Assembly: GCA_021776375.1 (NCBI GenBank)
Contig: JAJFGA010000026.1
Coordinates: 1 to 47,276, forward strand
Source: Hyphococcus sp.
GTDB lineage: Bacteria; Pseudomonadota; Alphaproteobacteria; Caulobacterales; Parvularculaceae
Direction: 5' to 3'
DNA length: 47,276 nucleotides
This document shows, piece by piece, positions 6,758-33,837 of this stretch; position 1 is the first letter of the stretch, and each line of letters starts with the position of its first letter. Under the pieces are notes generated by a model. That model was given only the letters and a program-made list of their open reading frames with translations, was not told the DNA's origin and made no database searches. The position numbers and the translations under genes were made by a program.

Positions 6758-6824
6758 GAGTTGTTCTGCCCCTGTAGAATTGTCTGTAGGGGAAAGTCGC
6801 TTGTTGCTTATTTTGACAATATTA

Positions 6825-6852
6825 AGGCCGCGCCAACTGGTGCGGCCTTTTT
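6825..6852 (+). terminator. Rho-independent terminator after the TonB receptor
   Basis: AGGCCGCGCC (6825-6834), loop AACT, then GGTGCGGCCT (6839-6848) form a 10-bp stem with one G-T wobble, followed by a T-run. It lies 68 bp after the receptor stop codon. Confidence 0.85.
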
Positions 6853-6980: not shown

Positions 6981-8489
6981 ATGTCGGAAAATACAAAAGG
7001 TGGCGTTGTCTATGCGCGGCCTGATGAGGGGTATTTCGAAAGGCGCGGCCTGAAACGCTATGCCGGCGTATGGTCGCTTTGGGCGCTGGGTGTTGGCGCC
7101 GTAATTTCGGGGCATTTTTCGGGATGGAATCTCGGTCTCGGCGTCGGTGGTTGGGGCGGAATGTTCATTGCCACAATCATCATTATGACGATGTATCTGG
7201 GGCTGACATTTTCCATTGCGGAAATGAGCCCGGCCTTACCGCATACGGGCGGCGCTTATTCTTTCGCCAGAACCGCCATGGGCCCCTGGGGTGGATTTGT
7301 GACAGGGTTGGCAGAGAATGTTGAGTTCGTTCTCACGCCTGCGGTGATCGTGTTTTTTATCTCGTCTTATCTCTCCGGAATATTTGAAACACCAGACAAT
7401 GTGTTGCCTGTTTATTGGTTTTTAGGATACGCGGTGTTCGTGACACTGAATATCGTTGGCGTTGAGTTATCCTTTCGTGTGTCCTTGCTCGTCACTCTAG
7501 CGGCGCTGACCTGTCTGATTGTGTTTTGGGTTTCCGCCGCTTCGAATATTGATTTCAACGCATGGGCGCTCGATATTGGCGCGGACGGTGAAAAGCTGGA
7601 GGGCGGCGGTGGCCCGTTCCTGCCGTTTGGGTTTTCCGGCGCGCTCGCGGCGCTACCTTTTGCGGTCTGGTTGTTTCTGGCGATAGAACAATTACCGCTG
7701 GCGGCGGAGGAATCGGTTGACCCTAAACGCGATATGCCGCGCGGGATTATCGCAGGCATGGTAACGCTCATCATTTCTGCGTTCGCAATATTATTCCTTA
7801 ACGCCAGCGTCATCGGCGTTGGCTCCCACGCGCTCGGTCAATCGGGAGAGCCTTTGTTGGATGGCTTCCGCGCCATCTATGGCGGCAGCACCGCCAAACT
7901 GCTCGCCCTGGTAGCGGTCATCGGCTTGGTTGCGTCTTTCCACACGATTATTTTCGCCAAAGGCAGGCAGATTTATTCTCTTTCTCGCGCCGGATATTTT
8001 CCGCAATTTTTATCGCTTACCCATGGCTCGCGCAAAACGCCCTATGTAGCGATGATTTTTGGCTCGGCAGTCGGCCTCACTGTAATGATGACGGTATGGC
8101 TTCTGGCTGGCGCCGCGCGCGGGGAAAGCATCATCGGTGGAACATTGTTAAACATGGCTGTTTTCGGCGCGATGTTTTCTTACGTTTTGCAGGCGGCCTC
8201 GTTCCTGCTGCTCCGCAAAAACATGCCGTCAATTGAACGGCCTTTTCGCAGCCCGCTCGGGCCGCCTGGCGCATGGACGACAATAGTCATCGCTCTGCTT
8301 ACATTGTATTACCAGCTCAGCGATCCCACCTACCGCGCCGGCGTCTTTGCTGTTGCCGGGTGGTTCGCGGTCGGGATCGTCTATTTTGCCGCCCATGGCA
8401 GACGCCACCTTGTCTTGTCGCCTGAAGAACAATTCGCAATGGATCAGCGGACAATATCAAAACAATCTAACCACGGACAAAAAATCTGA
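6981..8489 (+). CDS. APC-family permease, ethanolamine-permease type
   Basis: A 502-residue inner-membrane transporter with about 12 hydrophobic segments. It resembles the ethanolamine permease branch of the amino acid/polyamine/organocation superfamily. Useful stretches are GVGAVISGHFSGWNLGLGVG in helix 1, ALPHTGGAYSFARTAMGPWG, and FLAIEQLPLAAEESVDPKRD before the centre of the protein. The ribosome site CAGGTG lies 7 bp before ATG. Its stop overlaps the next gene by one base (TGATG), so translation of the two is probably coupled. The substrate assignment to ethanolamine rests on family resemblance and on the partner genes; another small amine or amino alcohol is possible. Confidence 0.82.
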   Translation: MSENTKGGVVYARPDEGYFERRGLKRYAGVWSLWALGVGAVISGHFSGWNLGLGVGGWGGMFIATIIIMTMYLGLTFSIAEMSPALPHTGGAYSFARTAMGPWGGFVTGLAENVEFVLTPAVIVFFISSYLSGIFETPDNVLPVYWFLGYAVFVTLNIVGVELSFRVSLLVTLAALTCLIVFWVSAASNIDFNAWALDIGADGEKLEGGGGPFLPFGFSGALAALPFAVWLFLAIEQLPLAAEESVDPKRDMPRGIIAGMVTLIISAFAILFLNASVIGVGSHALGQSGEPLLDGFRAIYGGSTAKLLALVAVIGLVASFHTIIFAKGRQIYSLSRAGYFPQFLSLTHGSRKTPYVAMIFGSAVGLTVMMTVWLLAGAARGESIIGGTLLNMAVFGAMFSYVLQAASFLLLRKNMPSIERPFRSPLGPPGAWTTIVIALLTLYYQLSDPTYRAGVFAVAGWFAVGIVYFAAHGRRHLVLSPEEQFAMDQRTISKQSNHGQKI

Positions 8490-9856
8490 TGAAGGGTCTG
8501 CTTTCTCTGGATGAATTGCGAGATGAAGTTCGCAAAGAGCGCATCGATACAGTTCTCGTTTGCTTTCCGGATATGCAAGGCCGGCTGATGGGCAAGCGGT
8601 TTCATGCGGAATTCTTTATCGATGGCGCGCATGAGGAAACCCATGCATGCGATTATCTTCTCGCCAATGATATGGAAATGGAGCTTGTGCCCGGCTATGA
8701 GGCGACGGGTTGGGACAAGGGCTATGGTGATTTTATTTTAAAGCCCGACCTTTCCACGCTCCGCATCACGCCCTGGCTCGAGGGAACGGCGCTGGTCCTT
8801 TGCGACATTCTGGATCACTCCGGCAAGCCGGCGCCGATCAGTCCACGCGCAATGCTCAAAAGCCAACTTGCGCGGCTGGAAGTGATGGGCATGACGGCGA
8901 TGACTGCTTCTGAACTTGAATTTTATTTATTTCATGAAACTTATGGATCCGCTACGGATAAGCATTTTCAAGACTTGAAACCAAGCGGCGCCTTCATTGA
9001 AGACTATCATATCCTGCAAACATCTAAAGAAGAGCTCGTGCTGCGCGCGATGCGTAATGGTATGCAAGGCGCCGGTATTCCGGTTGAAAATTCAAAAGGC
9101 GAGTGGGGCCCCGGGCAACAAGAGTTGAATGTCCGCTATGCGGATGCGCTGACCATGGCCGACCGCCATGTCATCATGAAGAACGGCATGAAAGAAATCG
9201 CCCACAGTCACGAACGGGCTATCACCTTTATGGCAAAGTGGAAGCATGAGCTTGCCGGCAATAGTTGTCATATTCACTTGTCGCTGTGGGACAAGGCCGG
9301 TAAGAAGCCGTTGTTTTTTGACGAAACCGCCGAATATGGAATGTCGCAATTGGTGCGGCAATTTATGGCGGGGCTGTTGGCCCATGGCGAAGAAATCACA
9401 TTTTTTCTGGCGCCGTTCATCAACTCCTATAAACGGTTTCAGGCGGGGACGTTTGCGCCAACGCGTCTGGTGTGGTCGCGCGACAACCGCACGGCTGGCT
9501 TTCGTTTATGCGGCGAAGCGACAAAGGCAATTCGCTGCGAATGCAGGGTGGGTGGTGGCGATCTCAACCCATATCTGGCGAAAGCAGCGCTCCTCGCCGC
9601 CGGGATTGACGGCATTGAAAAGAAAATGACTTTGGCGCCGGGCTTTGTCGGCGACGCCTATGCAGATGACAGTCTGCGCGCCGTGCCCGCAACATTGCGC
9701 GCCGCGATCGAGGCGCTTGACCAGTCGGAAATGTTGCGCGCTGCTTTTGGGGATGGGGTGATTAATCACTATGTGCATGCAGCGCGATGGGAGCAGTCCG
9801 AGTATGATCGCTGCGTCACGGATTGGGAATTGAAGCGTGGATTTGAACGCTCATAA
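8489..9856 (+). CDS. Glutamine-synthetase-like gamma-glutamyl-amine ligase
   Basis: A 455-residue member of the glutamine synthetase superfamily. These enzymes join glutamate to ammonia or an amine using ATP. It has the N-terminal beta-grasp region (VCFPDMQGRLMGKRF), the catalytic-domain SELEFYLF, GPGQQELNVRYADALTMADR, GNSCHIHLSLWD, and the ATP/glutamate region RLVWSRDNRTAGFRLCGEA followed by ECRVGGGDLNPYLA. Its place in an operon with an amine permease and two dehydrogenases argues for a catabolic gamma-glutamyl ligase (PuuA, IpuC or GlnA4-like) rather than ammonia assimilation. The amine is inferred to be ethanolamine. Coupled by a 1-bp overlap to the permease. Confidence 0.85.
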   Translation: MKGLLSLDELRDEVRKERIDTVLVCFPDMQGRLMGKRFHAEFFIDGAHEETHACDYLLANDMEMELVPGYEATGWDKGYGDFILKPDLSTLRITPWLEGTALVLCDILDHSGKPAPISPRAMLKSQLARLEVMGMTAMTASELEFYLFHETYGSATDKHFQDLKPSGAFIEDYHILQTSKEELVLRAMRNGMQGAGIPVENSKGEWGPGQQELNVRYADALTMADRHVIMKNGMKEIAHSHERAITFMAKWKHELAGNSCHIHLSLWDKAGKKPLFFDETAEYGMSQLVRQFMAGLLAHGEEITFFLAPFINSYKRFQAGTFAPTRLVWSRDNRTAGFRLCGEATKAIRCECRVGGGDLNPYLAKAALLAAGIDGIEKKMTLAPGFVGDAYADDSLRAVPATLRAAIEALDQSEMLRAAFGDGVINHYVHAARWEQSEYDRCVTDWELKRGFERS

Positions 9857-9868
9857 CGGGCGAACGGC

Positions 9869-11260
9869 ATGACTGAAATGACGCGATGCATATCGCCGAT
9901 TGACGGCTCGGTATATCTTGAACGACCGGTTGCGACGGCCAAGGATATCGAAGAGGCGCTCGGCGCGGCGCGTATTGCGCAAGCCGGTTGGTCTGCCCTT
10001 TCTATCGCGGAGCGCGCGCAATATTGCACTTCTATTGTCGATAATGTGCTGGCCATGGAAGCAGATATTACGCCCGAGCTTGCATGGCAGATGGGACGCC
10101 CTGTGCGGTTCGGCGCCGGAGAGTTGCGCGGCTTTGAGGAGCGTGCACGCTACATGATCGAGATCGCCGAGGAGGCGCTGGCGCCGACTGAACCCACGCC
10201 CACTGACGGCATCCGCCGTTTTATTCAACGCGTTCCCGTGGGCATGGTATTCATTATCGCCCCGTGGAATTACCCCTATCTCACCGCGGTAAACTCGCTG
10301 ATCCCGGCATTGATGGCGGGCAATACCGTCATTTTAAAACACGCCGCGCAAACCCTTGGCGTGGGTGAGCGGTTGCAGGCGGCGTGCGATAAAGCCGGCT
10401 TGCCAGAGGGCGTATTTAAAAATCTTTTCCTCACCCACGAGCAAGCAGCAGCGATGATTGCCAGCAACACAATCGACCAGGTGAATTTTACCGGCTCGGT
10501 CTCCGGTGGCAGGGCGGTTTCTGCGGCGGCGGCGAACACATTTATGGGGGTTGGGCTGGAGCTGGGAGGCAAGGACCCGGCTTATGTGCGAGAAGATGCA
10601 GACCTTGACCATGCGGTCGAGAACCTTGTCGATGGCGCATATTTCAATTCAGGCCAAAGTTGTTGCGGGATTGAGCGCATCTATGTGAGTGACAAAATCT
10701 ATCAAGATTTCATCGATGGTTTTATAGCGCTCACGCGGGCTTACATTTTAGGCAACCCGCTTGATGAGGCGACGACGCTTGGGCCGATGGCCAAGTCTGC
10801 GACGGCTGATTTTGTGCGTAGACAAATTAATTCTGCGGTTAGCTCCGGCGCACGTGCGTTGATCGATACGAAGGATTTCAAACTGGACGCGGCGGGCTCA
10901 GCCTATATGGCGCCGCAGGCGCTCATTGATGTCGATCATTCCATGGCGGTGATGATGGAAGAATCATTTGGGCCGGTCGTCGGCATCATGAAAGTGGGAG
11001 ACGATGATGAGACTGTTCGATTGATGAATGACAGCGCCTATGGGTTGAGTGCGTCTATTTGGACGGCGGATATGGATTGCGCGCAAATACTTGGCGGCCA
11101 GATAGAAACTGGAACCGTTTTCATGAACCGGTGTGACTATCTCGATCCGGCGCTCGCCTGGACCGGCGTTAAAAATACTGGACGCGGCGCGACGCTTTCA
11201 ACTATCGGATATAGCACGCTGACGCAGCCGAAATCATTTCATTTGAAATGCAAAATCTAA
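9869..11260 (+). CDS. NAD(P)-dependent aldehyde dehydrogenase
   Basis: A 463-residue aldehyde dehydrogenase. Motifs in order are the Rossmann/active-site lead PWNYPYL, the cofactor loop FTGSVSGGRAV, the general-base region GLELGGKDPAYV, the catalytic cysteine in FNSGQSCCGIERIYV, and EESFGPVVGIM near the C terminus. It starts 12 bp after the ligase. In the inferred pathway it would oxidise the gamma-glutamyl aldehyde to gamma-glutamylglycine. A role in oxidising another aldehyde made by the adjacent alcohol dehydrogenase is equally compatible with the sequence. Confidence 0.9.
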   Translation: MTEMTRCISPIDGSVYLERPVATAKDIEEALGAARIAQAGWSALSIAERAQYCTSIVDNVLAMEADITPELAWQMGRPVRFGAGELRGFEERARYMIEIAEEALAPTEPTPTDGIRRFIQRVPVGMVFIIAPWNYPYLTAVNSLIPALMAGNTVILKHAAQTLGVGERLQAACDKAGLPEGVFKNLFLTHEQAAAMIASNTIDQVNFTGSVSGGRAVSAAAANTFMGVGLELGGKDPAYVREDADLDHAVENLVDGAYFNSGQSCCGIERIYVSDKIYQDFIDGFIALTRAYILGNPLDEATTLGPMAKSATADFVRRQINSAVSSGARALIDTKDFKLDAAGSAYMAPQALIDVDHSMAVMMEESFGPVVGIMKVGDDDETVRLMNDSAYGLSASIWTADMDCAQILGGQIETGTVFMNRCDYLDPALAWTGVKNTGRGATLSTIGYSTLTQPKSFHLKCKI

Positions 11261-11273
11261 AGGGCGCCTGACC

Positions 11274-12431
11274 ATGCAGATGCATGCTGACTGGAGTTAT
11301 CCAACATCTATTCGCTTCGGCGCGGGCCGCATCAATGAGCTGGCGGATGTTTGCACAAGTGTTGGCATGCGTCGGCCCTTGTTGGTAACGGACCCTGTAC
11401 TTGCAAAATTTCCAATGATTGAGGGTGCCTTGTCGCAATGTCGTGCGGCGGGCTTGGGCATGGCGCTCTTTTCGGACCTTAAGCCAAATCCGACCGGCGC
11501 GAATGTCTATGCCGGCGCCAAAACCTTCCGCGACGGCGGTCATGACGGCGTCATTGCTTTCGGCGGTGGCAGCGCAATTGATTGCGGCAAGGCGATTGCG
11601 TTTCTGCATGGCCAATCACTTTCGCTCTGGGACTATGAAGGCATAGATGACTGGTGGAGCCGCGCAGACAGTGACGCGATTTCACCGGTTATTGCCGTGC
11701 CGACGACGGCGGGGACGGGGTCAGAGGTTGGCCGCGCATCAGTTATCGTTAAGGAAGACACGCTTGAGAAGAAAATCATTTTTCATCCCCGGATTATGCC
11801 GGTATGTGTGATTTCCGATCCGCAACTGACCGTTGGGATGCCACCGATACTAACGGCCGGGGTGGGGCTGGATGCGTTTACTCATTGCCTGGAAGCCTAC
11901 TGCGCCCCGACATTTCATCCGCAATCGGAAGGGATTGCGCTTGAAGGTATGCGGCTTGTCAAAGACGCGCTCGGCGACGCCGTCAAAGATGGTACAGATA
12001 TAAAGGCGCGCGCGAAGATGCTTGCGGCCGCATCCATGGGCGCTGTCGCCTTTCAAAAAGGGCTCGGCGCCATTCATTCCCTATCGCACCCGATCGGCGC
12101 CATCTATGACACCCACCATGGCATGACCAATGCGGTAATTATGCCTTATGTGCTGGCTTTTAACCGTAAGGCCATAGAGGAAAAGATCGAGCGGCTATCG
12201 GCTTTCATAGGGATAGAAGGAAAATTTGACGGGCTGATGAAATGGCTGATCGATCTCAGGTCAGAAATAAATATTCCGTATACATTACAAGAATTTGGCG
12301 TTGATGACGCGAAAGTGCAGAAAATTTCCGAAATGGCCGCCACTGACCCAACCGCTGCAACGAACCCGATAAAGCTCGACGCAAAGGCTGCCCGTGAAAT
12401 CTTTGAAGCCGCCTATGCGGGAAGGCTGTAG
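11274..12431 (+). CDS. Iron-containing alcohol dehydrogenase
   Basis: A 385-residue group III alcohol dehydrogenase. The NAD-binding segment is AFGGGSAIDCGKAIAFL, followed by PTTAGTGSEVGRASVI. The metal site is formed by GLDAFTHCLEAYCAPTFHP and by AIHSLSHPIGAIYDTHHGMT with its spaced histidines. It starts 13 bp after the aldehyde dehydrogenase and ends the operon at a strong hairpin. In context it would oxidise the hydroxyl of the gamma-glutamylated amino alcohol to the aldehyde used by the neighbouring enzyme. Confidence 0.9.
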   Translation: MQMHADWSYPTSIRFGAGRINELADVCTSVGMRRPLLVTDPVLAKFPMIEGALSQCRAAGLGMALFSDLKPNPTGANVYAGAKTFRDGGHDGVIAFGGGSAIDCGKAIAFLHGQSLSLWDYEGIDDWWSRADSDAISPVIAVPTTAGTGSEVGRASVIVKEDTLEKKIIFHPRIMPVCVISDPQLTVGMPPILTAGVGLDAFTHCLEAYCAPTFHPQSEGIALEGMRLVKDALGDAVKDGTDIKARAKMLAAASMGAVAFQKGLGAIHSLSHPIGAIYDTHHGMTNAVIMPYVLAFNRKAIEEKIERLSAFIGIEGKFDGLMKWLIDLRSEINIPYTLQEFGVDDAKVQKISEMAATDPTAATNPIKLDAKAAREIFEAAYAGRL

Positions 12432-12434
12432 TAA

Positions 12435-12460
12435 GGCGTCAGTATTTGACTACTGACGCC
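12435..12460. terminator. Bidirectional hairpin between convergent operons
   Basis: GGCGTCAGTA (12435-12444) and TACTGACGCC (12451-12460) form a perfect 10-bp stem with a 6-nt loop TTTGAC. It begins 4 bp after the alcohol dehydrogenase stop and overlaps the end of glpV. No long T-run follows on either strand, so it may act as a weak or processing-type terminator. Confidence 0.6.
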
Positions 12461-14168
12461 AACTTTCAACTAGAGTGTCATAGTCAATGGTTTCCGGCGC
12501 TGGGCGTTCATTGGCGAGTTTGGCTTTGGGCGCACCGTCTTTCGCCAGCCAATCTGCGGGGTTTGTTTTTTTGTTGAGTTTCGGCCCGCATTCCCCGTGC
12601 ACGCCAGCACGCTCCAGTCGCGACAGGATTTTATCTTGCGCGTCGGCGAGGGCGTCCATCGCCTGTTGCGCGGTTTTGGCGCCGGAGGAGGCGTCGCCGA
12701 TATTTTGCCACCAAAGCTGGGCAAGTTTCGGGTAGTCCGGAACATTCGTGCCGGTTGGCGACCACTGAAGACGGGCGGGCGAGCGGTAAAATTCAACCAA
12801 CCCGCCAAGCTCTGTCATGCGTTCTGTGAACGATCGATCCCGAATGTCCGACTCTCGGATGAAGGTGAGGCCGACATGGCTTTTCTTTAACGATACGGTT
12901 TTGGAAACTACAAATTGCGCATAAAGCCACGCCGCCTTGCGCCGGTCGACCGGTGTTGATTTCATCAAAGTCCACGACCCGGCGTCCTGGTAGCCGAGCT
13001 TTTGACCGTCCTGCCAATAGGCGCCGTGCGGCGAGGGGGCCATGCGCCATTTTGGTGCACCATCTTTGGCGACAACTGGCAGACCCGATTTGACCATGTC
13101 GGCAGTGAAGGCGGTGTACCAGAACATTTGCTGGGCGATGGTACCTTGTGCGGGTACGGGGCCAGCTTCGGAAAACACCATGCCGGCGGCTTGCGGCGGC
13201 GCATAGGCTTTCAGCCAGTCGATATATTTTTGCACCGCGTAAACAGCGGCGGGACCGTTGGTCGCGCCGCCGCGTGAGACTGATGAACCCACGGGACGGC
13301 AGCCGTCAACGCGAATGCCCCACTCATCCACAGGCAGACCGTTGGGTATGCCCCCGTCGCCCGCGCCGGCCATGGAGAGCCATGCATCCGTAAAGCGCCA
13401 GCCGAGTGATGGGTCCTTCTTGCCATAATCCATATGGCCATAGACGCGCACGCCGTCGATTTCACGCACGTCGTTTGTGAAGAAATTCGCAATATCTTCG
13501 TAGGCGGACCAGTTTACTGGAACGCCTAGCTCGTATCCGTATTTTTCCTTGAAGCGAGCTTTGAGGTTGGGATCGGTAAACCAGTCATAGCGAAACCAGT
13601 AGAGGTTGGCGAATTGTTGGTCTGGGAGTTGATAAAGCTTCCCGTCCGGTGCGGTAGTAAAAGTCCGTCCGATAAAGTCATCAACATCAAGCGTCGGCAA
13701 TGTAACATCCTTGCCTTCACCAGCCATCCAATCGGACAGTGCGACAACTTGCTTGTAGCGATAATGCGTGCCGATCAAATCGGAATCATTGACATAAGCG
13801 TCGTAGATATTGCGCCCGGTCTGTATTTGGGTTTGCAGTTTCTCAATAACGTCGCCTTCGCCGATGAGGTCGTGATTGACCTTGACGCCGGTGATTTCAA
13901 AAAACGCTTTGGCGAGTTTCTTGGATTCATATTCATGTGTGGCGATGGTCTCCGACACGACATTGATTTCCATTCCCTTGAAGGGGGCGGCGGCCTTGAT
14001 GAACCACGCCATTTCGGCTTGCTGCTCACCCTGGCTTAGTGTCGAGGGTTGGAATTCTTCGCCAATCCATTTGCGGGCGGCATCCATATCTGCTTGGGCT
14101 GAACCGGCGGCGATGACCGCAATAGCCAGAACACTGGCGGCTTGTTTTATTGTGGACAGTAGTCTCAT
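12450..14168 (-). CDS. glpV: Glycerol ABC transporter, substrate-binding protein
   Basis: A 572-residue periplasmic binding protein. The start at 14168 has AGGAG upstream and yields a signal peptide (MRLLSTIKQAASVLAIAVIA, ending GSAQA). The mature part has the extracellular solute-binding fold seen in sugar and glycerol binders (ETIATHEYESKKLAKAFFEI; YQLPDQQFANLYWFRYDWF). The large size and the gene order with two ATPases, two permeases and a DUF2160 membrane protein match the glycerol transporter described in Rhizobium leguminosarum. It is the last gene of the minus-strand operon. Frame-open codons upstream of 14168 belong to the leader and the glpU end. The substrate is by family, not seen directly. 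Confidence 0.85.
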   Translation of the reverse strand: MRLLSTIKQAASVLAIAVIAAGSAQADMDAARKWIGEEFQPSTLSQGEQQAEMAWFIKAAAPFKGMEINVVSETIATHEYESKKLAKAFFEITGVKVNHDLIGEGDVIEKLQTQIQTGRNIYDAYVNDSDLIGTHYRYKQVVALSDWMAGEGKDVTLPTLDVDDFIGRTFTTAPDGKLYQLPDQQFANLYWFRYDWFTDPNLKARFKEKYGYELGVPVNWSAYEDIANFFTNDVREIDGVRVYGHMDYGKKDPSLGWRFTDAWLSMAGAGDGGIPNGLPVDEWGIRVDGCRPVGSSVSRGGATNGPAAVYAVQKYIDWLKAYAPPQAAGMVFSEAGPVPAQGTIAQQMFWYTAFTADMVKSGLPVVAKDGAPKWRMAPSPHGAYWQDGQKLGYQDAGSWTLMKSTPVDRRKAAWLYAQFVVSKTVSLKKSHVGLTFIRESDIRDRSFTERMTELGGLVEFYRSPARLQWSPTGTNVPDYPKLAQLWWQNIGDASSGAKTAQQAMDALADAQDKILSRLERAGVHGECGPKLNKKTNPADWLAKDGAPKAKLANERPAPETIDYDTLVESWRQ

Positions 14169-14244
14169 GAAGATACTCCTCATAACTAAAACGCCGGCGA
14201 ACCGGGTTGCGACGGTGAATATGCGGGTATGAAAACCAACAAAA

Positions 14245-14532
14245 TTACCCCCACCAAAAAACGATTGCGGCGTAAACCAGTGAAGCTGCCGCCGCCCATT
14301 TGAGATCATACCCAGTTGCGCCAAGCCACGCCAGATGGATAAAGGCGCTGCCCAGCAGGGAAATAAACAACCGGTCGCCGCGCGTGGTGGCAAGCTTGAA
14401 AAATAGCCCCGGACGCGGTTCGGCACCATTTGGCCGCAAGAAATATAAACTAGCCATCAGGGCGAGAACGGATCCGATAGCGCTAAAAAATAGTACGGTG
14501 GGTACCGTCCAGGCCATCCATGAAAGGTCCAT
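14245..14532 (-). CDS. glpU: DUF2160 small membrane protein of glycerol transporter
   Basis: A 95-residue protein with about three hydrophobic segments (VPTVLFFSAIGSVLALMASL; LFISLLGSAFIHLAWLGA; AAASLVYAAIVFWWG). ATG at 14532 is chosen because GGAGG lies 5 bp before it; an upstream in-frame TTG at 14544 overlaps that ribosome site. DUF2160 proteins occur between permease and binding-protein genes of glycerol-type ABC transporters. Their exact role is unknown; an accessory part of the membrane complex is likely. Confidence 0.8.
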   Translation of the reverse strand: MDLSWMAWTVPTVLFFSAIGSVLALMASLYFLRPNGAEPRPGLFFKLATTRGDRLFISLLGSAFIHLAWLGATGYDLKWAAAASLVYAAIVFWWG

Positions 14533-14547
14533 TGCCGCCTCCAAAAT

Positions 14548-15366
14548 TTACACTCGGCCGAGTGCAAAGCCACGTGCGATGTGATGGCGCACAAACCAGA
14601 TGACCAGTGCGCCGGGAAGGATGGTCAAAATGCCCGCCGCTGCCAGAACGCCCCAGTCTAGGCCGGAAGCGGAAACTGTTCGCGTCATCACTGCTGCGAT
14701 TGGTTTGGCGGCGACAGATGTTAATGTGCGTGCGATGAGCAATTCGACCCATGAAAACATAAAACAGAAAAATGCGGCAACGCCGATGCCGCTCGCGATT
14801 AGCGGCGTAAAAATTTTCACGAAGAACTTAGGGAAGGAATAGCCGTCAATATAAGCCGTTTCATCAATCTCGCGTGGTACTCCGGACATGAAGCCTTCTA
14901 AAATCCAAATCGCCAGCGGGATATTGAAAAGCGTATGCGCTAAGGCAACGGCGATATGAGTGTCGAAAAGGCCGATTGAAGAGTAAAGCTGAAAGAATGG
15001 CAGTGCAAACACGGCAGGCGGCGCCATTCTGTTGGTCAGCAGCCAAAAGAAGATATGTTTGTCGCCGAGGAAACGGTGCCGAGAGAACGCGTAAGCCGCT
15101 GGCAATGCCGCCATCACGGAAATCACCGTATTCATTGAAACATAGATCATCGAATTGATGTATCCAGAATACCACGACGCATCGGTGAAGATGACAATGT
15201 AATTTGCCAGGGTCGGATTTTTCGGCCAGAGGGAAAAAGCTGACAAGATTTCCTGATTGGTTTTTAGACTCATCGTCAAGAGCCAGTAGATCGGCGTCAT
15301 CAGGAAAATAATATAAAGCGTTGGCGCAAAATATTTCGCGCGCAATTTCTTCCCAGGGGCGTTCAT
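14548..15366 (-). CDS. glpQ: Glycerol ABC transporter permease (MalG-like)
   Basis: A 272-residue inner-membrane permease of the MalG/UgpE type with six predicted helices. The ATPase-docking EAA loop reads EIDETAYIDGYSFPKFFVKI. The start MNAPGKKLRAKYF overlaps the stop of the preceding permease by 4 bp, which suggests coupled translation. Here glpQ is the permease name used for rhizobial glycerol transporters and not the phosphodiesterase of the same name. Confidence 0.87.
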   Translation of the reverse strand: MNAPGKKLRAKYFAPTLYIIFLMTPIYWLLTMSLKTNQEILSAFSLWPKNPTLANYIVIFTDASWYSGYINSMIYVSMNTVISVMAALPAAYAFSRHRFLGDKHIFFWLLTNRMAPPAVFALPFFQLYSSIGLFDTHIAVALAHTLFNIPLAIWILEGFMSGVPREIDETAYIDGYSFPKFFVKIFTPLIASGIGVAAFFCFMFSWVELLIARTLTSVAAKPIAAVMTRTVSASGLDWGVLAAAGILTILPGALVIWFVRHHIARGFALGRV

Positions 15367-16244
15367 CGCACGCCTCCAGATGGTTCAAAATCTTCACGCG
15401 TCATGATGGTGTAGAACGCCCATGAGACTAATATAACAATAAGGAAATATATCACTGACAACGCCGCCGCTGGGCCTAAATCAAACTGACCTATCGCCAT
15501 TTTGACGAGATCCACGGAAAGAAAAGTGGTGGCGTTGCCGGGGCCGCCGCCGGTGACGACGAAAGGTTCTGTATAGATCATGAAGCTGTCCATGAAACGC
15601 AACAGAACCGCAATAAGTAAAACGCGGCTCATTTTGGGAAGTTCAATATAGCGAAAGACCGCCCAGCGTGATGCGCCATCAATGCGCGCCGCCTGATAAT
15701 AAACGGGCGGGATAGCAACCAGCCCTGCATAACAAAGCAGCACCACCAGGCTTGTCCAATGCCAAACATCCATAATGATGAGTGTCGCCCATGCGGCACC
15801 GACGTTTTGTGTGTAGTTGTAATCAACGCCAAGCCCGTTCAGCGTATAGCCAAGAAGGCCGATATCGACCCGCGCAAAAATCTGCCAGATCGTACCGACC
15901 ACGTTCCACGGGATTAATAGCGGCAGCGCCATCAACACGAGGCAAACAGAAACGCTGATACCTTTTTTCGGCATGGAGAGGGCGATGGCGAGTCCCAGAG
16001 GGATTTCGATTGCCAATACCGTGGCTGAGAATGCGATTTGCCTGAGGAAGGCGGCGTGAAACCGGTCAGATTGCAGAATTTCCCGGTACCATTCCGCGCC
16101 GACCCAGAAAAATTGATTATTCCCGAACGTGTCCTGTACGGAATAATTAACCACAGTCATTAAAGGAATAACGGCCGTAAACGCCACCAGCAATAATGCC
16201 GGCGCGACAAGCCATAAGGCTTTATGATCATGTGTTTTTTGCAT
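15363..16244 (-). CDS. glpP: Glycerol ABC transporter permease (MalF-like)
   Basis: A 293-residue permease of the MalF/UgpA type. The start at 16244 (MQKTHDHKALWLVAPALLLV) puts the first helix immediately after a short cytoplasmic tail. Codons upstream in the same frame run inside glpT and are not needed. The EAA-type loop is YYQAARIDGASRWAVFRYIE. The gene follows glpT by 4 bp and overlaps glpQ by 4 bp. Confidence 0.87.
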   Translation of the reverse strand: MQKTHDHKALWLVAPALLLVAFTAVIPLMTVVNYSVQDTFGNNQFFWVGAEWYREILQSDRFHAAFLRQIAFSATVLAIEIPLGLAIALSMPKKGISVSVCLVLMALPLLIPWNVVGTIWQIFARVDIGLLGYTLNGLGVDYNYTQNVGAAWATLIIMDVWHWTSLVVLLCYAGLVAIPPVYYQAARIDGASRWAVFRYIELPKMSRVLLIAVLLRFMDSFMIYTEPFVVTGGGPGNATTFLSVDLVKMAIGQFDLGPAAALSVIYFLIVILVSWAFYTIMTREDFEPSGGVR

Positions 16245-16248
16245 GGCG

Positions 16249-17331
16249 CTAGGCTCGCTTTCCCACGAGATGGCCGTCGGCATATATGTGCACATTATCC
16301 GCATCGAATAAAACGCCAGCAGTCTCGGAAGGCGGCGGTGCGCCATCGGGAAGAATTGCGGCGAGCTGTAGGCCGCGAAACCGCAGCCGTGCGATCCGAT
16401 ACCGCCCGGCATCCTCGATCGCCTCAACGGTTACCGGCAAGGCGTCATTATTATCAGTGACTTTGACAAATTCCGGGCGCACGCCAAGCTCAATGCATTC
16501 GGCGCCAGAGGGCAGAGTGACGTTGCAGCCGACATTGATGGTGTGACCGGCGAGACTGATATGATGGCCGTCGAGTGCGCAGGGCAACACATTCATCCCC
16601 GGCGAGCCGATAAATTGGCCAACAAACGTATGTGCGGGGCGTTCAAACAATTCTTGCGGCGAGGCAGTTTGCACGACCTCGCCTTCGGACATGACGATGA
16701 TCTGATCGGCGAATGTCAATGCTTCGGTCTGGTCGTGGGTGACATAGATCATGGTATGATTGAATTCAGCATGAAGCCGCTTCAGTTGAGAGCGGAGCGA
16801 CCATTTCAGTTGCGGGTCAATTACCGTAAGCGGCTCATCAAATAATATCGCGGTGACGTCTTCACGAACAAGGCCGCGGCCAAGCGATATTTTCTGTTTT
16901 TCATCCGCGGATAAATCACGGGCTTTACGAGGCAGATATTTTGATAATTCCAGCATGTCAGCGAGGCGGCGCACGCGGGCGTCAATTTCATGCTTAGGGA
17001 CTTTGCGGTTTTGAAGAGGAAAGGCTAGGTTGTGATAGACTGTCATGGTGTCGTAAATGACCGGAAACTGAAAAATTTGCGCAATATTGCGCACCTCAGG
17101 AGGGCTTGTGGTTATGTCAGCGCCATCGAACAAGACCGCACCTTGCGTCGGCTGCAGCAATCCGGAAATAATGTTGAGCAAGGTTGTCTTTCCGCACCCT
17201 GAGGGCCCTAAAAGCGCGTAAGCGCCGCCATCTTGCCAGCTGACATTGAGCTTTTTTAGAGCGAAGTCATCTTCTGATGATGGCGCCGCAAGGTAGGAAT
17301 GGGCGATATTATTCAAATCAATCTGCGCCAT
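16249..17331 (-). CDS. glpT: Glycerol ABC transporter ATPase with unusual signature motif
   Basis: A 360-residue ABC ATPase with a C-terminal TOBE-like extension, as in MalK-type subunits. Walker A is GPSGCGKTTLLN and Walker B is AILFDEPLTVIDP. The ABC signature is not LSGGQ: it reads LSADEKQKISLGRGLVRED. I recall this form from glycerol-transporter GlpT proteins, so it is probably a family trait and not damage. The start MAQIDLNNIAHSYL at 17331 lies one base after the glpS stop. It pairs with GlpS, which keeps the standard signature, so the two ATP sites are not equivalent. Confidence 0.87.
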   Translation of the reverse strand: MAQIDLNNIAHSYLAAPSSEDDFALKKLNVSWQDGGAYALLGPSGCGKTTLLNIISGLLQPTQGAVLFDGADITTSPPEVRNIAQIFQFPVIYDTMTVYHNLAFPLQNRKVPKHEIDARVRRLADMLELSKYLPRKARDLSADEKQKISLGRGLVREDVTAILFDEPLTVIDPQLKWSLRSQLKRLHAEFNHTMIYVTHDQTEALTFADQIIVMSEGEVVQTASPQELFERPAHTFVGQFIGSPGMNVLPCALDGHHISLAGHTINVGCNVTLPSGAECIELGVRPEFVKVTDNNDALPVTVEAIEDAGRYRIARLRFRGLQLAAILPDGAPPPSETAGVLFDADNVHIYADGHLVGKRA

Positions 17332-17332
17332 T

Positions 17333-18403
17333 TCAACAGCCCGGAGGAGCGACGACAAGAGCGCCAGTTTCATCAAAAACAAATAGCTTATCCGGGGCGG
17401 GATTGAGGGAGATTCTATCTCCCGTATTCAGAGCGTGGACTCCATGTAGCAAAGATACCCAACGCATCCCCATAAACTCTGCATGCACTATTGTTTCCGA
17501 CCCGGTAACTTCGGTCGTCGCCACAACCGCATCTATGCCGCAGCTAGCAGGCGCCCCAATGCTAAGGTGGTGCGGGCGTAGGCCGATTTCGTAAGGCCCA
17601 TCGGCAAGGGTTTCGATGTGACTCCCTGCATGCAAGCGCCCGTCGCCGTCAAATTCCAGAATAGCACCTTTTTTCTTAATACGTACCGTATTCAACGGGG
17701 GATCGCTCATGATTTGTGCAGTGACGAGTGAGTTCGGGTGATCATATAGCGAGCGCGCCGAGCCTGTGCTGGCTATACGGCCCTCATGCAAACATGTGAC
17801 ACTGTCGCCAATCAACATCGCTTCTGCGGATTCAGAGGTTGCATAGACAATCACCGCGCCGTTGCCTTTAAAAATCCGGGGTAATTCAGTACGCAACTCC
17901 TCGCGAAGTTTGTAATCAAGATTTGCCAGCGGCTCATCAAGCAATACGAGTGAGGCCTCTTTGGCCAAGGCGCGCGCTAATGCGACGCGTTGTTGTTGGC
18001 CGCCCGAAAGCTCGCTCGGACGCCGGTGTAAAAATTCTTTTATGCCGAGAACATCGGCCGCACCCTCTACTTTTTGCTTGATTTCTCGATTGGCGACACG
18101 GCGCACTCGTAAAGGCGAGGCGATGTTTTCAAAAACGCTTAAAGACGGGTAGTTGACGAATTGCTGGTAGACCATTGCGACGTTTCGTTTGCGCACTGGA
18201 ACACCGGTCATGGCTTGACCGTTCATGACGATCTCGCCGCTAGTGGGCCTATCGAGACCCGCCATCAACCGCATCAGGGTGGTTTTCCCAGACAGAGTTG
18301 GGCCTAGCAAAATATGTAATTTACCGGGCGCCAATGAAAGTGTGATGTCTTTCACCTGCGCTTGCTCGCGCTCATGCTTAGTGATGGATTTTAGCTCGAG
18401 CAT
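17333..18403 (-). CDS. glpS: Glycerol ABC transporter ATPase, canonical signature
   Basis: A 356-residue ABC ATPase, first gene of the operon. Walker A is GPTLSGKTTLMR, the signature is LSGGQQQRVALARALAKE, and Walker B is LVLLDEPLANLD. A TOBE-type regulatory region follows after about residue 240 (YEIGLRPHHLSIG). The order glpS-glpT-glpP-glpQ-glpU-glpV on one strand, with overlaps or gaps of a few bases through the first four genes, matches the rhizobial glycerol transporter. No glpK, glpD or glpR lies next to it in this window. Confidence 0.87.
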   Translation of the reverse strand: MLELKSITKHEREQAQVKDITLSLAPGKLHILLGPTLSGKTTLMRLMAGLDRPTSGEIVMNGQAMTGVPVRKRNVAMVYQQFVNYPSLSVFENIASPLRVRRVANREIKQKVEGAADVLGIKEFLHRRPSELSGGQQQRVALARALAKEASLVLLDEPLANLDYKLREELRTELPRIFKGNGAVIVYATSESAEAMLIGDSVTCLHEGRIASTGSARSLYDHPNSLVTAQIMSDPPLNTVRIKKKGAILEFDGDGRLHAGSHIETLADGPYEIGLRPHHLSIGAPASCGIDAVVATTEVTGSETIVHAEFMGMRWVSLLHGVHALNTGDRISLNPAPDKLFVFDETGALVVAPPGC

Positions 18404-18633: not shown

Positions 18634-19225
18634 ATGTTAGAGAAAACGGTTACAGTGCTGGCGGCGGTGATCGCTGGGGTCTTTATCACTCCTTATGTGT
18701 GGATCGGGTGGGAGACAAGGCGTTTGATGATGAAGCGCGCAGCTGTGCTCCGGGGCAATTTTCAGAACTGACCAGCGGCAAACTCCAATATGTCTGGGGC
18801 GAGCTCACACCGGGTGCCGTGAATGGTGAGAGCATCTTCATGCTGCACGGGCTTTACATTTCCCATTTCATGTTTGCGCAAAACGCCGAAGCGCTTGCCG
18901 GTGCCGGGTATCGTGTTTTGTTACCGGATTGGCTTGGCCCCGCCGGCCTTTCCGACCGCCCAACTGAGAAATACGACCCGGCTTTCTTTGAGCTCCAAGT
19001 GTGAGATTTGTTGACTGTGCCTGGATAGACAAGCCGTTTTACCTTGTGGGCCGATCCGCAGGCGGCATGGCGGCGTCTATGCAGAGCTAGAGATTATTGA
19101 AAATGGCGACAACGCGATGGATTTTCGCAAGTCCGAAACAGTTATTCCGGTGTTGCTGTCATAGCTTGCTGGCCTAGACCCGGCCATATCGACTAATACG
19201 ATGGGTGCAAGTGAAGAAAGGTGAG
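18634..19225 (+). pseudogene. Alpha/beta hydrolase remnant, frameshifted and truncated
   Basis: The first frame gives a membrane anchor (MLEKTVTVLAAVIAGVFITP) and stops at 18770. A second frame continues the fold from about 18740: LTSGKLQYVWGELTPG, IFMLHGLYISHFMF with the oxyanion-hole HG, and YRVLLPDWLGPAGLSDRP, then stops near 19004. A third stretch at about 19030-19070 shows KPFYLVGRSAGGM, the GxSxG nucleophile elbow. After that the sequence degrades, and most of the cap and the C-terminal Asp/His part cannot be found. At least two frame changes plus a C-terminal loss make this a dead gene. A run of nine G lies just before the ATG (18618-18626). Confidence 0.8.
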
Positions 19226-19241
19226 CGAATAATTTTCGCTG

Positions 19242-20270
19242 TCACTTAGTCGAGGCTGCAACGCTCGCAAGCCGCGCCGCATAGGCCGCATCGGGGAAAT
19301 CTGTGAACACACCGTCGACGCCGAGATTGAAGAAGAATTCAAATTCGGCGTGTGCGGTCTGAAAAGCATCGGGTAGCTGGTCTGCCCTGAAGGTCCATGG
19401 ATGAACTTTGAGGCCAGCCGCATGAGCATCATTGATAAATCCGCTTGATTGACCTTCAGCATCGACGAGCAATTTTTTGTAGGGCCCAATACCATCAGCA
19501 AAAACAGCTATTTCTGACATGGTGAGGGCGCTCTTTGACTCGAGAAGATAGATGAGAGGTAATTGGGTTTTGGTCCTGAGGTCTTTTAATATTTGCATTT
19601 CAAACGACTGAATAAACACCGGCGCTTCTTTTTCGTTCCATCCGGCACGCTCCAATGCACCGATGATCTCAGTTGCATAATCATAACCAAGGCTGGCAAA
19701 ATAACTGGGAGATTTTGTTTCTGGATAAATACCTATTGTTCTACCCAGTCGTTCACTTTCAGATTGCGCAAGCGCAATTACTTCATCAAAAGTCGGGATT
19801 TCAAACAAGCCATCCGCTGCATGGCTGCGGGCCACCATGACCTGGCGTGCTCGCAGGGTCTTAATTTCAGCGAGAGTAAAATCTTCCGTGAACCAATCAG
19901 CACCGTCATGATTATGTTTTTCAGTTTTTCTGTCCGCAAATTCTGGGTGGTCAGAAATGTCTGTAGTGGTTGACAGATAGTGCTCATGGCGCGCAACTAA
20001 ATGCCCGTCTTTTGTGAACACAAGATCGGGTTCGATATAATCGGCTCCAAGTGTGGCACCTATACCGTATCCGGCGAGCGTATGTTCCGGGAGATAGCCG
20101 GGCGCGCCGCGATGGGCAATGATTAATGGTGATGAGGTCGTGTGCGCCATGATTGGCTCTTTCGCTTTGGTGGAGTGAGGCTTTGAATTCCTGATAGCGC
20201 AACCAGTCGCTACGGGAATCAGTGCCGCCCTGACTGCGGTTTGTAGCAATGTTCGACGCCTGAATTGCAT
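19242..20270 (-). CDS. Glycerophosphodiester phosphodiesterase, exported
   Basis: A 342-residue GDPD-family enzyme that would cleave glycerophosphodiesters to glycerol-3-phosphate and an alcohol such as ethanolamine. The N terminus MQFRRRTLLQTAVRAALIPV has a twin-arginine-like start, and VATGC at its end could be a lipobox, so the protein is probably periplasmic or membrane-anchored. The catalytic pattern is clear: IIAHRGAPGYLPEHTLAGY, GADYIEPDLVFTKDGHLVARH, GIYPETKSPSYF, and VDGVFTDFPDAA near the end. It appears intact although flanked on both sides by broken genes. Its product would suit the glycerol and ethanolamine genes nearby (inference). Confidence 0.88.
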   Translation of the reverse strand: MQFRRRTLLQTAVRAALIPVATGCAIRNSKPHSTKAKEPIMAHTTSSPLIIAHRGAPGYLPEHTLAGYGIGATLGADYIEPDLVFTKDGHLVARHEHYLSTTTDISDHPEFADRKTEKHNHDGADWFTEDFTLAEIKTLRARQVMVARSHAADGLFEIPTFDEVIALAQSESERLGRTIGIYPETKSPSYFASLGYDYATEIIGALERAGWNEKEAPVFIQSFEMQILKDLRTKTQLPLIYLLESKSALTMSEIAVFADGIGPYKKLLVDAEGQSSGFINDAHAAGLKVHPWTFRADQLPDAFQTAHAEFEFFFNLGVDGVFTDFPDAAYAARLASVAASTK

Positions 20271-26068: not shown

Positions 26069-26966
26069 CTAGGGTTGAGGCTTTGGTTTCTTGCCCTCAA
26101 CGAGAGTACGGTGACGGAGCAATGCATCCGCAATAAAGCTCGTGAACTTTCTGATGCACGCAGTATTGCGCATGTCCTCATGGGTCAAAACGCAAACATC
26201 AGTCTGCAACACAAGAGACCCTGGCGGCATGCGATAGACACCGGCCGCCGCGTCACCCATAAAGCAAGGCAGGACTGCCATTCCTAACCCTGCGCGAATA
26301 GCATTGAGGGTCGCATGCGGATATTCAATGATCGACCCAATCGGCGTATCGGGAAAGTCTGTTTCTTTCATCCACTGCTGAGAGGACGGGTGATCTGACC
26401 AAACGATCCAACGGAGTACGGGCATTTTCTTGTGAGCAGATTGATTGCGCGGCAGATACTCCTTATTCACATATGCTGCGCGCGCCATTGTTAGAACCCG
26501 GCGGCCAATCAAATCTTGCGGCGGGTTGTTCGAAACGCGAATGGCGACATCAGCTTCTCGTTTTGCTAAATCTACCATTTCATAATTGGGTGCGATTTCT
26601 AGTTAGATATTCGGATTGGCCCTGGCAAATTCTGTAAAGCCGGGCATGAGAAGGTGGGTCGCGAGCACGCCGGGAATTGCAATGCGGATTTTGCCCGTCA
26701 GCTCCGCGTCGCGGCCGGATATTTGACGATCAACTGCATTTGCCTCTGTTTCTATCCGTTCCGCGGAACGCAACATCTCGTCGCCGGCCTCAGTTGTAAA
26801 ATACCCCTCCGGCAGTCGCTCGAATAAGCGCGCGCCGAGCTCATCTTCTAAGCCGTTATGCGGCGCATCACTGTGGAACGGCTCAAACCTAGAGCTTCAG
26901 CCGCTTTCGAAAGCGAAGTAGCGCGTGCGACCGCGAGAAATATTCGACGAATATCCCAGCTAACCA
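26069..26966 (-). pseudogene. LysR-family regulator, frameshift plus nonsense
   Basis: Translation from ATG at 26966 gives the LysR helix-turn-helix (DIRRIFLAVARATSLSKAAE, ALGLSRSTVMRRI) and then hits a TAG at 26850-26848. In the next frame the protein continues perfectly: LEDELGARLFERLPEGYFTT, and so on through GKIRIAIPGVLATHLLMPGF. It is then cut by a TAA at 26605-26603 between NPNI and LEIAPNYEMVDLAKREADVA. The effector-binding domain is open from there to 26069 (DVAIRVSNNPPQDLIGRRVL). Two independent lesions make it a pseudogene. The 170-codon C-terminal piece alone lacks DNA binding. Confidence 0.85.
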
Positions 26967-27423: not shown

Positions 27424-28335
27424 CTAAAACGATTTTATAAGATGCGGAACGCCCTTTTGCCGGCATGCGGCGGCAAGCGTATTCGCCATGAGTAGCGCAA
27501 TCGTCATGGGACCAACCCCGCCAGGTACCGGTGTGATAAACCCGGCCGCCGTAGCGGCGCTGGCAAAATCTACGTCGCCGACAAGCCTGGTTTTACCCTC
27601 ACCCTTTTCCGGCGCTGCAATCCGATTGATGCCGACATCAATGACTGTGGCGCCCGGTTTGATCCATGCGCCTTTGATGATCTCAGCGCGTCCGACGGCG
27701 GCGATGACAATATCTGCGCGGCGCACAACATCTTCAATGTCTCTGGTTCTGCTATGCGCGATAGTGACCGTGCAATTTTCAGCGAGAAATAGCTGGGCCG
27801 CCGGTTTGCCGACAATGTTGGAGCGGCCGATGATAACCGTGTGAAGGCCGGACAGATTCTCGCCAAGAACGGATTTAGCAAGAATGATGCAACCTGCCGG
27901 TGTACAAGGGATCAGCGCCTTGTCAAAATCACCGGCGCCGAGGCGGCCGACATTGATCGGGTGAAAACCATCAACATCCTTTTCCGGCGCTATCAATTCA
28001 ATAACTTTTGTCGCATCAATATGCGCCGGTAATGGCAGTTGAACGAGAATGCCATTGACGGCTGGATCGTCATTTAGGGTGGTGATGAGAGCAATCAGAT
28101 CGCTCTCAGTCGTATCGACGGGGAGCGTGTGTTGAATGGATTTGAAGCCAACCTTTTCCGCAGCCCTGCCTTTGTTGCGGACATAGACCGCACTTGCCGG
28201 ATCCTCGCCGACAAGGACGACGGCAAGACAGGGGGGCGTCCCGGTCTCGTGAATATAGTCTTCGGTTTGCGTGGCGATATTGTCGGTCACGCATGCGGCG
28301 ATGATTTTGCCGTCGATGGTTTTGGCTACGGTCAT
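27424..28335 (-). CDS. folD: Methylene-THF dehydrogenase / methenyl-THF cyclohydrolase
   Basis: A 303-residue bifunctional FolD. It interconverts 5,10-methylene-, 5,10-methenyl- and 10-formyl-tetrahydrofolate using NADP. The chosen start at 28335 gives [16 protein letters not shown], the normal FolD N terminus; upstream codons are not conserved-looking. Motifs are [20 protein letters not shown] with the catalytic-lysine region, [28 protein letters not shown], the cofactor loop [15 protein letters not shown], and [18 protein letters not shown]. It is divergent from the DUF1244-fds genes but clearly belongs with Fhs and Fds in one-carbon flux. Confidence 0.95.
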
Positions 28336-28578
28336 TCTTGAGCGCCTTTTTAGGCGTGAGATAGCGCATTGGTGCGGTGCCTGAAAGCCCTCTTTTTTGT
28401 CGCACAACCTTTGCGGCACCAGTTATCCTGCCGGTTAGGCGAGAAAAAACTGGCCAACAGGCCGGTCATTGAATAATTCTTAGCGGTGATAGTTATGGCT
28501 GCAAGCTTGGGAACCTGGCATATGGCGAGAGGCCCGGCTGTTTCGCCCGCGCCAGCCACCATGGAGGAGATTGAACAC

Positions 28579-28881
28579 ATGGCTTGCATGACGGATAATG
28601 ATCGCGACAAGTTGGACGCTGCTGTGATGCGCCGCCTCATTGCACATCTCGATGCCCACAAAGATGTGCAGAATATCGATTTGATGATTTTGGCCGGTTT
28701 TTGCCGGAATTGTCTTTCGAAATGGTATCTGGCGGCAGCCGACGAGCACGGCGCCAATGTTTCCTGCGAGGAAGCACGCGAGCGCATCTACGGCATGCCT
28801 TATGATCAATGGAAGGCGCAATATCAAACACCTGCAACACCTGAGCAGCTTGCGGCGATGGAGAGCCGAAAAAAAGACTGA
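28579..28881 (+). CDS. DUF1244 domain protein
   Basis: A 100-residue protein with the DUF1244 (SMc04008-like) signature: a helical N-terminal half (MRRLIAHLDAHKDVQNIDLM), the invariant GFCRNCLSKWY, and GMPYDQWKAQYQ. The start at 28579 is chosen because GGAGGAG at 28563-28569 lies 9 bp upstream. The frame is open further up to 28486, but that part is not domain-like. Function is unknown; the paired cysteines in FCRNC might bind metal. It lies 55 bp before fdsG, possibly without functional relation. Confidence 0.85.
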   Translation: MACMTDNDRDKLDAAVMRRLIAHLDAHKDVQNIDLMILAGFCRNCLSKWYLAAADEHGANVSCEEARERIYGMPYDQWKAQYQTPATPEQLAAMESRKKD

Positions 28882-28936
28882 CTACGTGCGATCAATACGG
28901 CATTTGTCCCGATTGGTGTGATATAAGAAACGAGAA

Positions 28937-29428
28937 ATGGCAGCATTGATTGATAAGCTTGAGCATGCACCCGCCCGCCTAATCTGCGGGCGGCACGATA
29001 ACCGTCCGGATGTGCTGTTGGAAATCCTGCATGAAGTGCAGGCAACTGAAGGCTGGCTCAGCGACGATGCGCTCCACACCATCGCCGATGCGCTCAATAT
29101 TTCCCGCGCAGAGATCCACGGTGTGGTTAGTTTCTATAATGACTATAAGCGTGAGGCGCCAGCCAAACATTGTATAAAATTATGCCACGCCGAGGCCTGC
29201 CAGGCGGTTGGCTCGGGAGCGCTTGCTGCGCATGCAAAAAATAAATGGAACGTCTCGACCGGCGGTAAGAGTGCAGATAACAAGATTGAATTGGAGGCGG
29301 TTTACTGCCTTGGTAATTGCGCCCTCGGGCCGTCGGCGATGATTGACGGCGAGCTTATTGGCCGGGTGACATCAGAACGCCTGGATGCGTTGATTGAAAG
29401 ATGCATTGAAGAGTCGGAGTGCGAATGA
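28937..29428 (+). CDS. fdsG: NAD-dependent formate dehydrogenase, gamma subunit
   Basis: A 163-residue NuoE-like subunit carrying one [2Fe-2S] cluster. The N-terminal helical part (LLEILHEVQATEGWLSDDAL; ISRAEIHGVVSFYNDY) is typical of NuoE. The four cysteine ligands sit in IKLCHAEACQAVGSGAL and VYCLGNCALGPSAMI. It is the first gene of the fdsGBA-fdhD operon and overlaps fdsB at its stop. The cluster passes electrons within the cytoplasmic formate dehydrogenase complex. Confidence 0.92.
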   Translation: MAALIDKLEHAPARLICGRHDNRPDVLLEILHEVQATEGWLSDDALHTIADALNISRAEIHGVVSFYNDYKREAPAKHCIKLCHAEACQAVGSGALAAHAKNKWNVSTGGKSADNKIELEAVYCLGNCALGPSAMIDGELIGRVTSERLDALIERCIEESECE

Positions 29429-30969: not shown

Positions 30970-30991
30970 CCCCGTTTGGCAAGGAAGAAAG

Positions 30992-33832: not shown

Positions 33833-33837
33833 GGTCG

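Follow-up and report, generated by a model that had tools for sequence, protein, structure and literature searches.

Here, we analysed a 47,276-nt stretch of Hyphococcus sp. DNA (hereafter the window; assembly GCA_021776375.1, contig JAJFGA010000026.1), which is contig 19 of a 3.1-Mb, 84.4% complete genome assembly in 92 contigs. On its forward strand, four adjoining genes at positions 6981..12431 very probably constitute a gamma-glutamylation-type operon for the catabolism of ethanolamine, as judged from sequence comparisons. In the proposed pathway, a permease would import ethanolamine, and a ligase resembling glutamine synthetase (GS) would couple it, at the expense of ATP, to glutamate through the gamma-carboxyl group. 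The hydroxyl group of the product would then be oxidized to an aldehyde by an iron-containing alcohol dehydrogenase (Fe-ADH), the aldehyde would be converted to gamma-glutamylglycine by an aldehyde dehydrogenase (ALDH), and a hydrolase encoded elsewhere would free glycine and glutamate. The glycine could feed the glycine cleavage system, and GcvP was found in the genome. Such a route would require no lyase, B12 or microcompartment. A first-pass annotation of this DNA had put forward the same intermediates, and homology supports each step, while substrate and products, reaction order, the hydrolase and the source of ethanolamine are what we infer for this organism. The locus extends the lyase-free ethanolamine route to a Parvularculaceae lineage, and ethanolamine transporters are abundant and expressed ocean-wide (PMC10132767).

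All four open reading frames (ORFs) lie on the same strand, with spacings of -1, 12 and 13 bp between successive genes, and coordinates and spacings are those that the first-pass annotation had given for the operon. The genes encode an APC-family permease of the ethanolamine-permease type (6981..8489; 502 aa; AA_permease, 9e-34), a GS-like, predicted glutamate-ethanolamine ligase (8489..9856; 455 aa; Gln-synt_C, 1e-97), an ALDH predicted to turn the gamma-glutamyl aldehyde into gamma-glutamylglycine (9869..11260; 463 aa; Aldedh, 1e-114) and an Fe-ADH, the predicted gamma-glutamylethanolamide dehydrogenase (11274..12431; 385 aa; Fe-ADH, 1e-46, plus ADH_Fe_C). Comparison with congeneric loci (L126-L129) gave dN/dS values of 0.04-0.13 in 14 of 15 gene-by-relative comparisons; the fifteenth, with the permease gene of L126, gave no value because of a stop at the start coordinate chosen, and the L126 ALDH was excluded because it was matched in two frames. 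Thus, the four ORFs are genes under purifying selection rather than chance reading frames. The excluded ALDH gene (L126:7255-8647) was matched as two tblastn pieces in different frames, reflecting either an assembly error or a broken gene.

Against the PDB, the ligase scores 648 bits with 11zs and 563 bits with 5dm3 (which we take to be Csal_0679 of Chromohalobacter salexigens), the other 36 matched sequences reaching at most 179 bits. It exceeds no NCBIfam cut-off, scoring 235 of the 429 bits required for GlnA, 260 of 470 for the type III family and 229.5 of 650 for gamma-glutamylputrescine synthetase. We aligned 62 sequences of the ligase family, using as reference the separate canonical GlnA encoded on contig 70 of the same genome, which retains the flap glutamate of the ammonium site (E327). 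In the window ligase this residue is Phe322, and Phe occupies the position in 61 of the 62 sequences (the window included), with Trp in the remaining one. All 62 sequences preserve the six metal ligands as well as R321, R359 and G265. In the window ligase, the position of R337 is Asp and that of R339 is Arg; the D50 column (Glu in 30 sequences, Asp in 32) is not confidently aligned. Streptomyces GlnA4, which has been assayed on ethanolamine (Km 0.47 mM), likewise has Phe at the flap (F331) and a residue other than Asn at N264 (PMC6529630). These features place the window protein, by prediction, with GS-like ligases of the ETAGA/GlnA4 kind, which lack the flap glutamate. Among named records, its closest relatives (94-95% identical) belong to one unclassified alphaproteobacterium and three Marinicaulis sp. 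assemblies, the latter listed by the tree tool as Parvularculaceae.

The remaining products of the operon fit this assignment. The permease matches the ethanolamine permease model of NCBIfam (TIGR00908) with 371.5 bits, compared with 129 for the next family, and is thus predicted to be the ethanolamine transporter that such operons carry in either TRAP or permease form; the permease variant of the cluster is also found in rhizobia (S. meliloti and R. leguminosarum). Genes for an ALDH and an alcohol dehydrogenase directly follow that of the ligase. Both dehydrogenases retain catalytic motifs, with Asn134, Glu231 and Cys265 in the ALDH and D200, H204, H272 and H282 in the Fe-ADH.

The first-pass annotation implied that this arrangement would be new for an alphaproteobacterium, a view that the literature does not support, because the scheme is already in print both for Phaeobacter, an alphaproteobacterium (PMC10132767), and for Streptomyces, for which Krysenko et al. 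put forward a scheme with identical intermediates (PMC6529630). Cluster MED193_10021-10056 of Phaeobacter sp. MED193 comprises RpiR, GGAH, EtoVWX, ETAGA, GAADDH and GETADH. Five of its proteins (the hydrolase, the ethanolamine-binding protein, the ligase and both dehydrogenases) rise during growth on phosphorylethanolamine, and the binding protein has a Kd of 7.9 uM for ethanolamine (PMC10132767). The window operon shares with this cluster the order of ligase, ALDH and alcohol-oxidizing dehydrogenase as well as the proposed chemistry, and the link to phosphorylethanolamine use may be a further likeness; that the last gene of the Phaeobacter-type order encodes an Fe-ADH was seen directly in a Ruegeria relative (L089). 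However, Phaeobacter has a TRAP transporter, an in-cluster gamma-glutamylglycine amidohydrolase and RpiR, whereas the window operon has an APC permease and neither hydrolase nor regulator. The same permease-GS-ALDH-FeADH order is found on S. meliloti pSymB (L084) and R. leguminosarum pSK03 (L083), with the GS 66% identical, but these rhizobial clusters have upstream an RpiR regulator and a gene of the N-formylglutamate-amidohydrolase (FGase) type, the published type of gamma-glutamylglycine hydrolase (PMC10132767), and the window locus has neither. The Streptomyces GlnA4 cluster (SCO1610-1615) resembles the operon in its gamma-glutamylethanolamide synthetase with flap residue F331, its ALDH and its amidohydrolase/amidotransferase genes, but differs in gene order and has a short-chain dehydrogenase where the operon has the Fe-ADH; a permease gene accompanies the set in other Streptomyces and is absent from the S. 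coelicolor cluster (PMC6529630). The ethanolamine ammonia-lyase (Eut) pathway would have its substrate in common with the operon. The first-pass annotation had called for a search for eutBC; EutB gave no match in this 84%-complete genome, although the E. coli positive control was matched, and EutC was not searched for; by the EutB marker, the genome shows no sign of the Eut pathway.

Scanning genome contigs with short peptide patterns of the window ligase yielded 69 ligase loci, a set that such queries bias towards close relatives, and the genes around them were assigned by tblastn. Fifty-one loci had at least 4.2 kb of downstream sequence and 43 had both flanks, 18 and 26 loci, respectively, being too short for inclusion. 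In this survey of gene order, which the first-pass annotation had proposed, both dehydrogenases stand beside the ligase in 28 of the 43 loci, and both occur in 32 of the 51 (Fe-ADH in 39); 12 of the 51 have neither. The remainder of the set varies; among the 28 loci, 9 have this type of permease, 11 the TRAP type and 11 an FGase, with permease and FGase together in 2. Contigs labelled as Bacteroidota and Rhodothermota (L013, L015 and L058) also show the four-gene order of the operon.

In addition, 64 plasmid records were found, of which we examined 8. The S. meliloti and R. leguminosarum plasmids carry RpiR-FGase-permease-GS-ALDH-FeADH, the cluster takes its TRAP form on those of P. denitrificans and Qingshengfaniella, and that of Ruegeria conchae has FGase-GS-ALDH-FeADH. 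The last arrangement recurs on the Aminobacter and P. pantotrophus plasmids, typed as conjugative and mobilizable by PLSDB, where it adjoins genes of the beta-hydroxyaspartate cycle (L085:6172-15342 and L086:6142-14122). These genes, annotated in both records as glyoxylate catabolism, act on glyoxylate and glycine. The Paraburkholderia sabiae plasmid carries a different cluster (L087:874-8353), in which a 61% identical ligase is accompanied by a PuuD-type hydrolase, a desaturase, a 2-AEP-type transaminase and a homoserine O-succinyltransferase. This set is reminiscent of rhizobitoxine genes, and serinol, the precursor of rhizobitoxine, is an amino alcohol.

In a 70-row ligase tree, the window falls in a 15-row clade (support 95/95) of 11 full gene sets and 4 Robiginitomaculum loci labelled as having Fe-ADH only. 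The wider, 35-row half of the tree holds 29 full sets, 4 Fe-ADH-only loci and 2 others with a support of 93/83, below the starred level, and the Burkholderiaceae ligases fall in the opposite half. We assigned the gene-set labels from the tblastn survey, and 'other' includes loci that end at contig ends. The four Robiginitomaculum loci (L011, L012, L014 and L067) combine the ligase and an Fe-ADH with a convergent class-I amidotransferase gene and have no ALDH nearby; a fifth (L070) is cut by a contig end.

As the sequence by itself does not fix the chain length of the substrate, the same chemistry might have some other small amino alcohol as its substrate (3-amino-1-propanol, serinol, alaninol or 1-amino-2-propanol, for example) and give a different product. 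The Burkholderiaceae lend this alternative some substance, since their 60-63% identical ligases belong to another kind of cluster that includes a PuuD-type hydrolase, joined on the P. sabiae plasmid by the desaturase and the homoserine O-succinyltransferase, so that other amines may also be substrates of the family. Nevertheless, we consider it unlikely, given that the permease is of the ethanolamine type, that the nearest gene orders are those of published ethanolamine operons or their rhizobial relatives, that beta-hydroxyaspartate-cycle genes adjoin two copies of the operon, and that the window ligase belongs to the tree half rich in full sets, not to that of the Burkholderiaceae. A gamma-glutamyl route for polyamines or monoamines, of the PuuA, PauA or IpuC type, would share a GS-like fold and an ALDH with the operon, yet it is very improbable. 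The ligase stays far below the gamma-glutamylputrescine synthetase cut-off, which sets it apart from the Puu polyamine pathway, and matches the PauA7 structure 4hpp with 72 bits; the PuuC model scores 212 bits against a cut-off of 850, the operon encodes no amine oxidase or monooxygenase, and the Fe-ADH would imply a substrate bearing a hydroxyl. That the ligase is an ordinary ammonia-assimilating glutamine synthetase standing beside unrelated dehydrogenases is scarcely credible despite its GS domain, considering its GlnA and type III scores, its structure matches, the missing flap glutamate and the canonical GlnA on contig 70.

Preferring the ethanolamine route leaves its last step to be accounted for. 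In agreement with the first-pass annotation, neither inspection by eye of the window's 39 ORFs of at least 150 aa nor Pfam on 24 of its proteins revealed a gamma-glutamyl hydrolase, and the cluster contains no gamma-glutamylglycine amidohydrolase gene of the FGase family. An in-cluster FGase is usual but not defining, as 17 of the 28 ligase-ALDH-FeADH loci with both flanks have no detectable one. Two or more kinds of hydrolase occur near the ligases of relatives. One is of the FGase type, present at 14 of 69 genome loci and at 7 of 8 plasmid loci; the others are amidotransferase types, namely class-I amidotransferases at five Robiginitomaculum loci and PuuD-like hydrolases on the P. sabiae plasmid and at six loci of Burkholderiaceae.

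Elsewhere in the genome, two PF05013 genes were found, on contig 43 (L002) and contig 47 (L001), whose products are 31% and 26% identical, respectively, to the R. leguminosarum operon FGase. The contig-47 protein has the higher Pfam score (253 versus 130 bits), but the operon-FGase profile does not match it. The contig-43 gene, which by eye adjoins a carboxylate-amine-ligase-like gene, is of a kind present in 22 of the 28 genomes of the genus (E-value 4e-45 or better). Of the 5 genomes that have the ligase, 2 contain it, compared with 20 of the 23 that lack the ligase. This distribution does not support it as a dedicated partner of the operon. The genome search for a PuuD-type hydrolase that the first-pass annotation had recommended returned five weak Peptidase_C26 matches, which look like ordinary class-I amidotransferase domains: the best (L003) is immediately followed by a TrpD-like ORF and by eye resembles TrpG, and for the other four, frame length was the sole criterion. 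The ligase-side amidotransferase of Robiginitomaculum has no orthologue in this genome (best match 20 bits). Three gamma-glutamyltranspeptidases are encoded, but such enzymes are usually extracytoplasmic and are therefore weak candidates. Hence, the locus raises the question of which enzyme cleaves gamma-glutamylglycine where the usual hydrolase gene is missing.

Convergent with the operon on the reverse strand lies an ABC transporter cluster, followed by a gene for a GlpQ-like glycerophosphodiester phosphodiesterase (GDPD; 19242..20270, reverse strand; Pfam GDPD, 9e-44; PRK11143, 216 bits with a cut-off of 254). The transporter cluster comprises a solute-binding protein (12450..14429, ORF limits, the true start lying further in; SBP_bac_1), a small DUF2160 membrane protein (14245..14544; PF09928, 1.4e-28; same order in L125), two permeases with BPD_transp_1 domains (14548..15366 and 15363..16427, the latter given as ORF limits, with relatives matching about 295 of its 354 residues) and two ATPases (16249..17382 and 17333..18403), both with ABC_tran and with UgpC, below its cut-off, as the best NCBIfam model. 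We call the transporter glycerol-type because its binding protein shares 79% identity with an Azospirillum protein whose gene lies between glpD and glpK, in a gene order that is shared down to DUF2160; neither glpD nor glpK adjoins it in the window. Between transporter and GDPD, on the forward strand, tblastn pieces mark the remnant of an alpha/beta-hydrolase gene (18634..19218), which is intact (335-339 aa) in the other four ligase genomes (L126-L129) and gave Abhydrolase_1 in the two relatives scanned.

The ligase was found in 5 of 62 genomes of the family, all within the genus (5 of 28), and the glycerol-type binding protein is present in the same five. All five keep the block from the operon through the GDPD gene, beyond which the genes differ (FolD follows directly in two). 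As these genomes are close kin, the block is probably one event, not five. The GDPD is 79-83% identical in the other four, but eleven ligase-free genomes of the genus carry 48-56% identical homologues, so having a GDPD is not in itself linked to the operon. Near the ligases of the other loci searched (65 genome and 8 plasmid), the glycerol-type binding protein gave no match, and a GDPD gave only a weak one, at two loci (L051 and L053). The ABC genes beside the Ruegeria conchae operon likewise gave no match to this binding protein.

The neighbouring genes suggest a single locus for salvage of the phosphatidylethanolamine headgroup, in which the ethanolamine would come from phosphatidylethanolamine or glycerophosphoethanolamine. 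In its full form, this proposal describes an island of the Parvularculaceae lineage in which a lipase-like alpha/beta-hydrolase and the GlpQ-like enzyme would free glycerophosphate or glycerol and ethanolamine, the ABC transporter and the permease would each import one of the halves, the gamma-glutamyl route would lead to glycine, and a hydrolase other than the customary FGase partner would cleave gamma-glutamylglycine. We regard this combination as tentative, with slightly less than an even chance of being correct. The locus physically couples the ethanolamine route to glycerophosphodiester breakdown, and among the papers listed by our literature search, no title or opening of an abstract describes a locus joining ethanolamine glutamylation with GDPD and glycerol transport. 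While the pathway chemistry is ordinary, this lipid-salvage context is what our analysis adds to a known pathway and, along with the missing last hydrolase, the part of specialist interest.

Several observations weigh against the interpretation developed here. The permease score is 10 bits too low for the curated TIGR00908 cut-off (381.75), and the glutamate-site residue N264 of GS corresponds to Ala256 in the ligase (Ala in 59 of the 62 family sequences). The 12 loci with neither dehydrogenase indicate that the ligase family serves other contexts too. In the available portions of PMC10132767, a figure legend labels the pathway as predicted, and a binding assay is given for the transporter protein but none for the Phaeobacter enzymes. 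The hydrolase gene is absent from the operon, and the contig-43 FGase kind is commoner in genomes without the ligase than in those with it. As for lipid salvage, the alpha/beta-hydrolase gene is broken in the window, and the transporter adjoins the operon only in five close relatives among the loci examined. Moreover, with the genome 84% complete, absences are weak evidence.

Hairpins lie on both sides of the operon. Upstream, a terminator-like hairpin (6824..6849, forward strand) with an 11-pair stem and a T tail, listed by the terminator scan, stands between the operon and the 3' end of a TonB receptor gene. Downstream, the end hairpin that the first-pass annotation had described as shared does exist, as a 10-bp inverted repeat with perfect arms (12435-12444 and 12451-12460), whereas its role as a terminator is only plausible: it sits between two convergent operons, and the terminator scan did not list it. 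The whole scan found 9 terminator-like sites (8.1 expected from shuffles) and 4 promoter-like sites (5.3 expected), neither in excess. Further along the window, a 169-aa ORF (26069-26578) with a LysR substrate-binding domain only may be a truncated regulator. At 27424-36759, 15 kb from the operon, lie genes for FolD, a formate-dehydrogenase-like set, FdhD and formate-tetrahydrofolate ligase, and these one-carbon genes could act on C1 units derived from glycine, oxidizing them.

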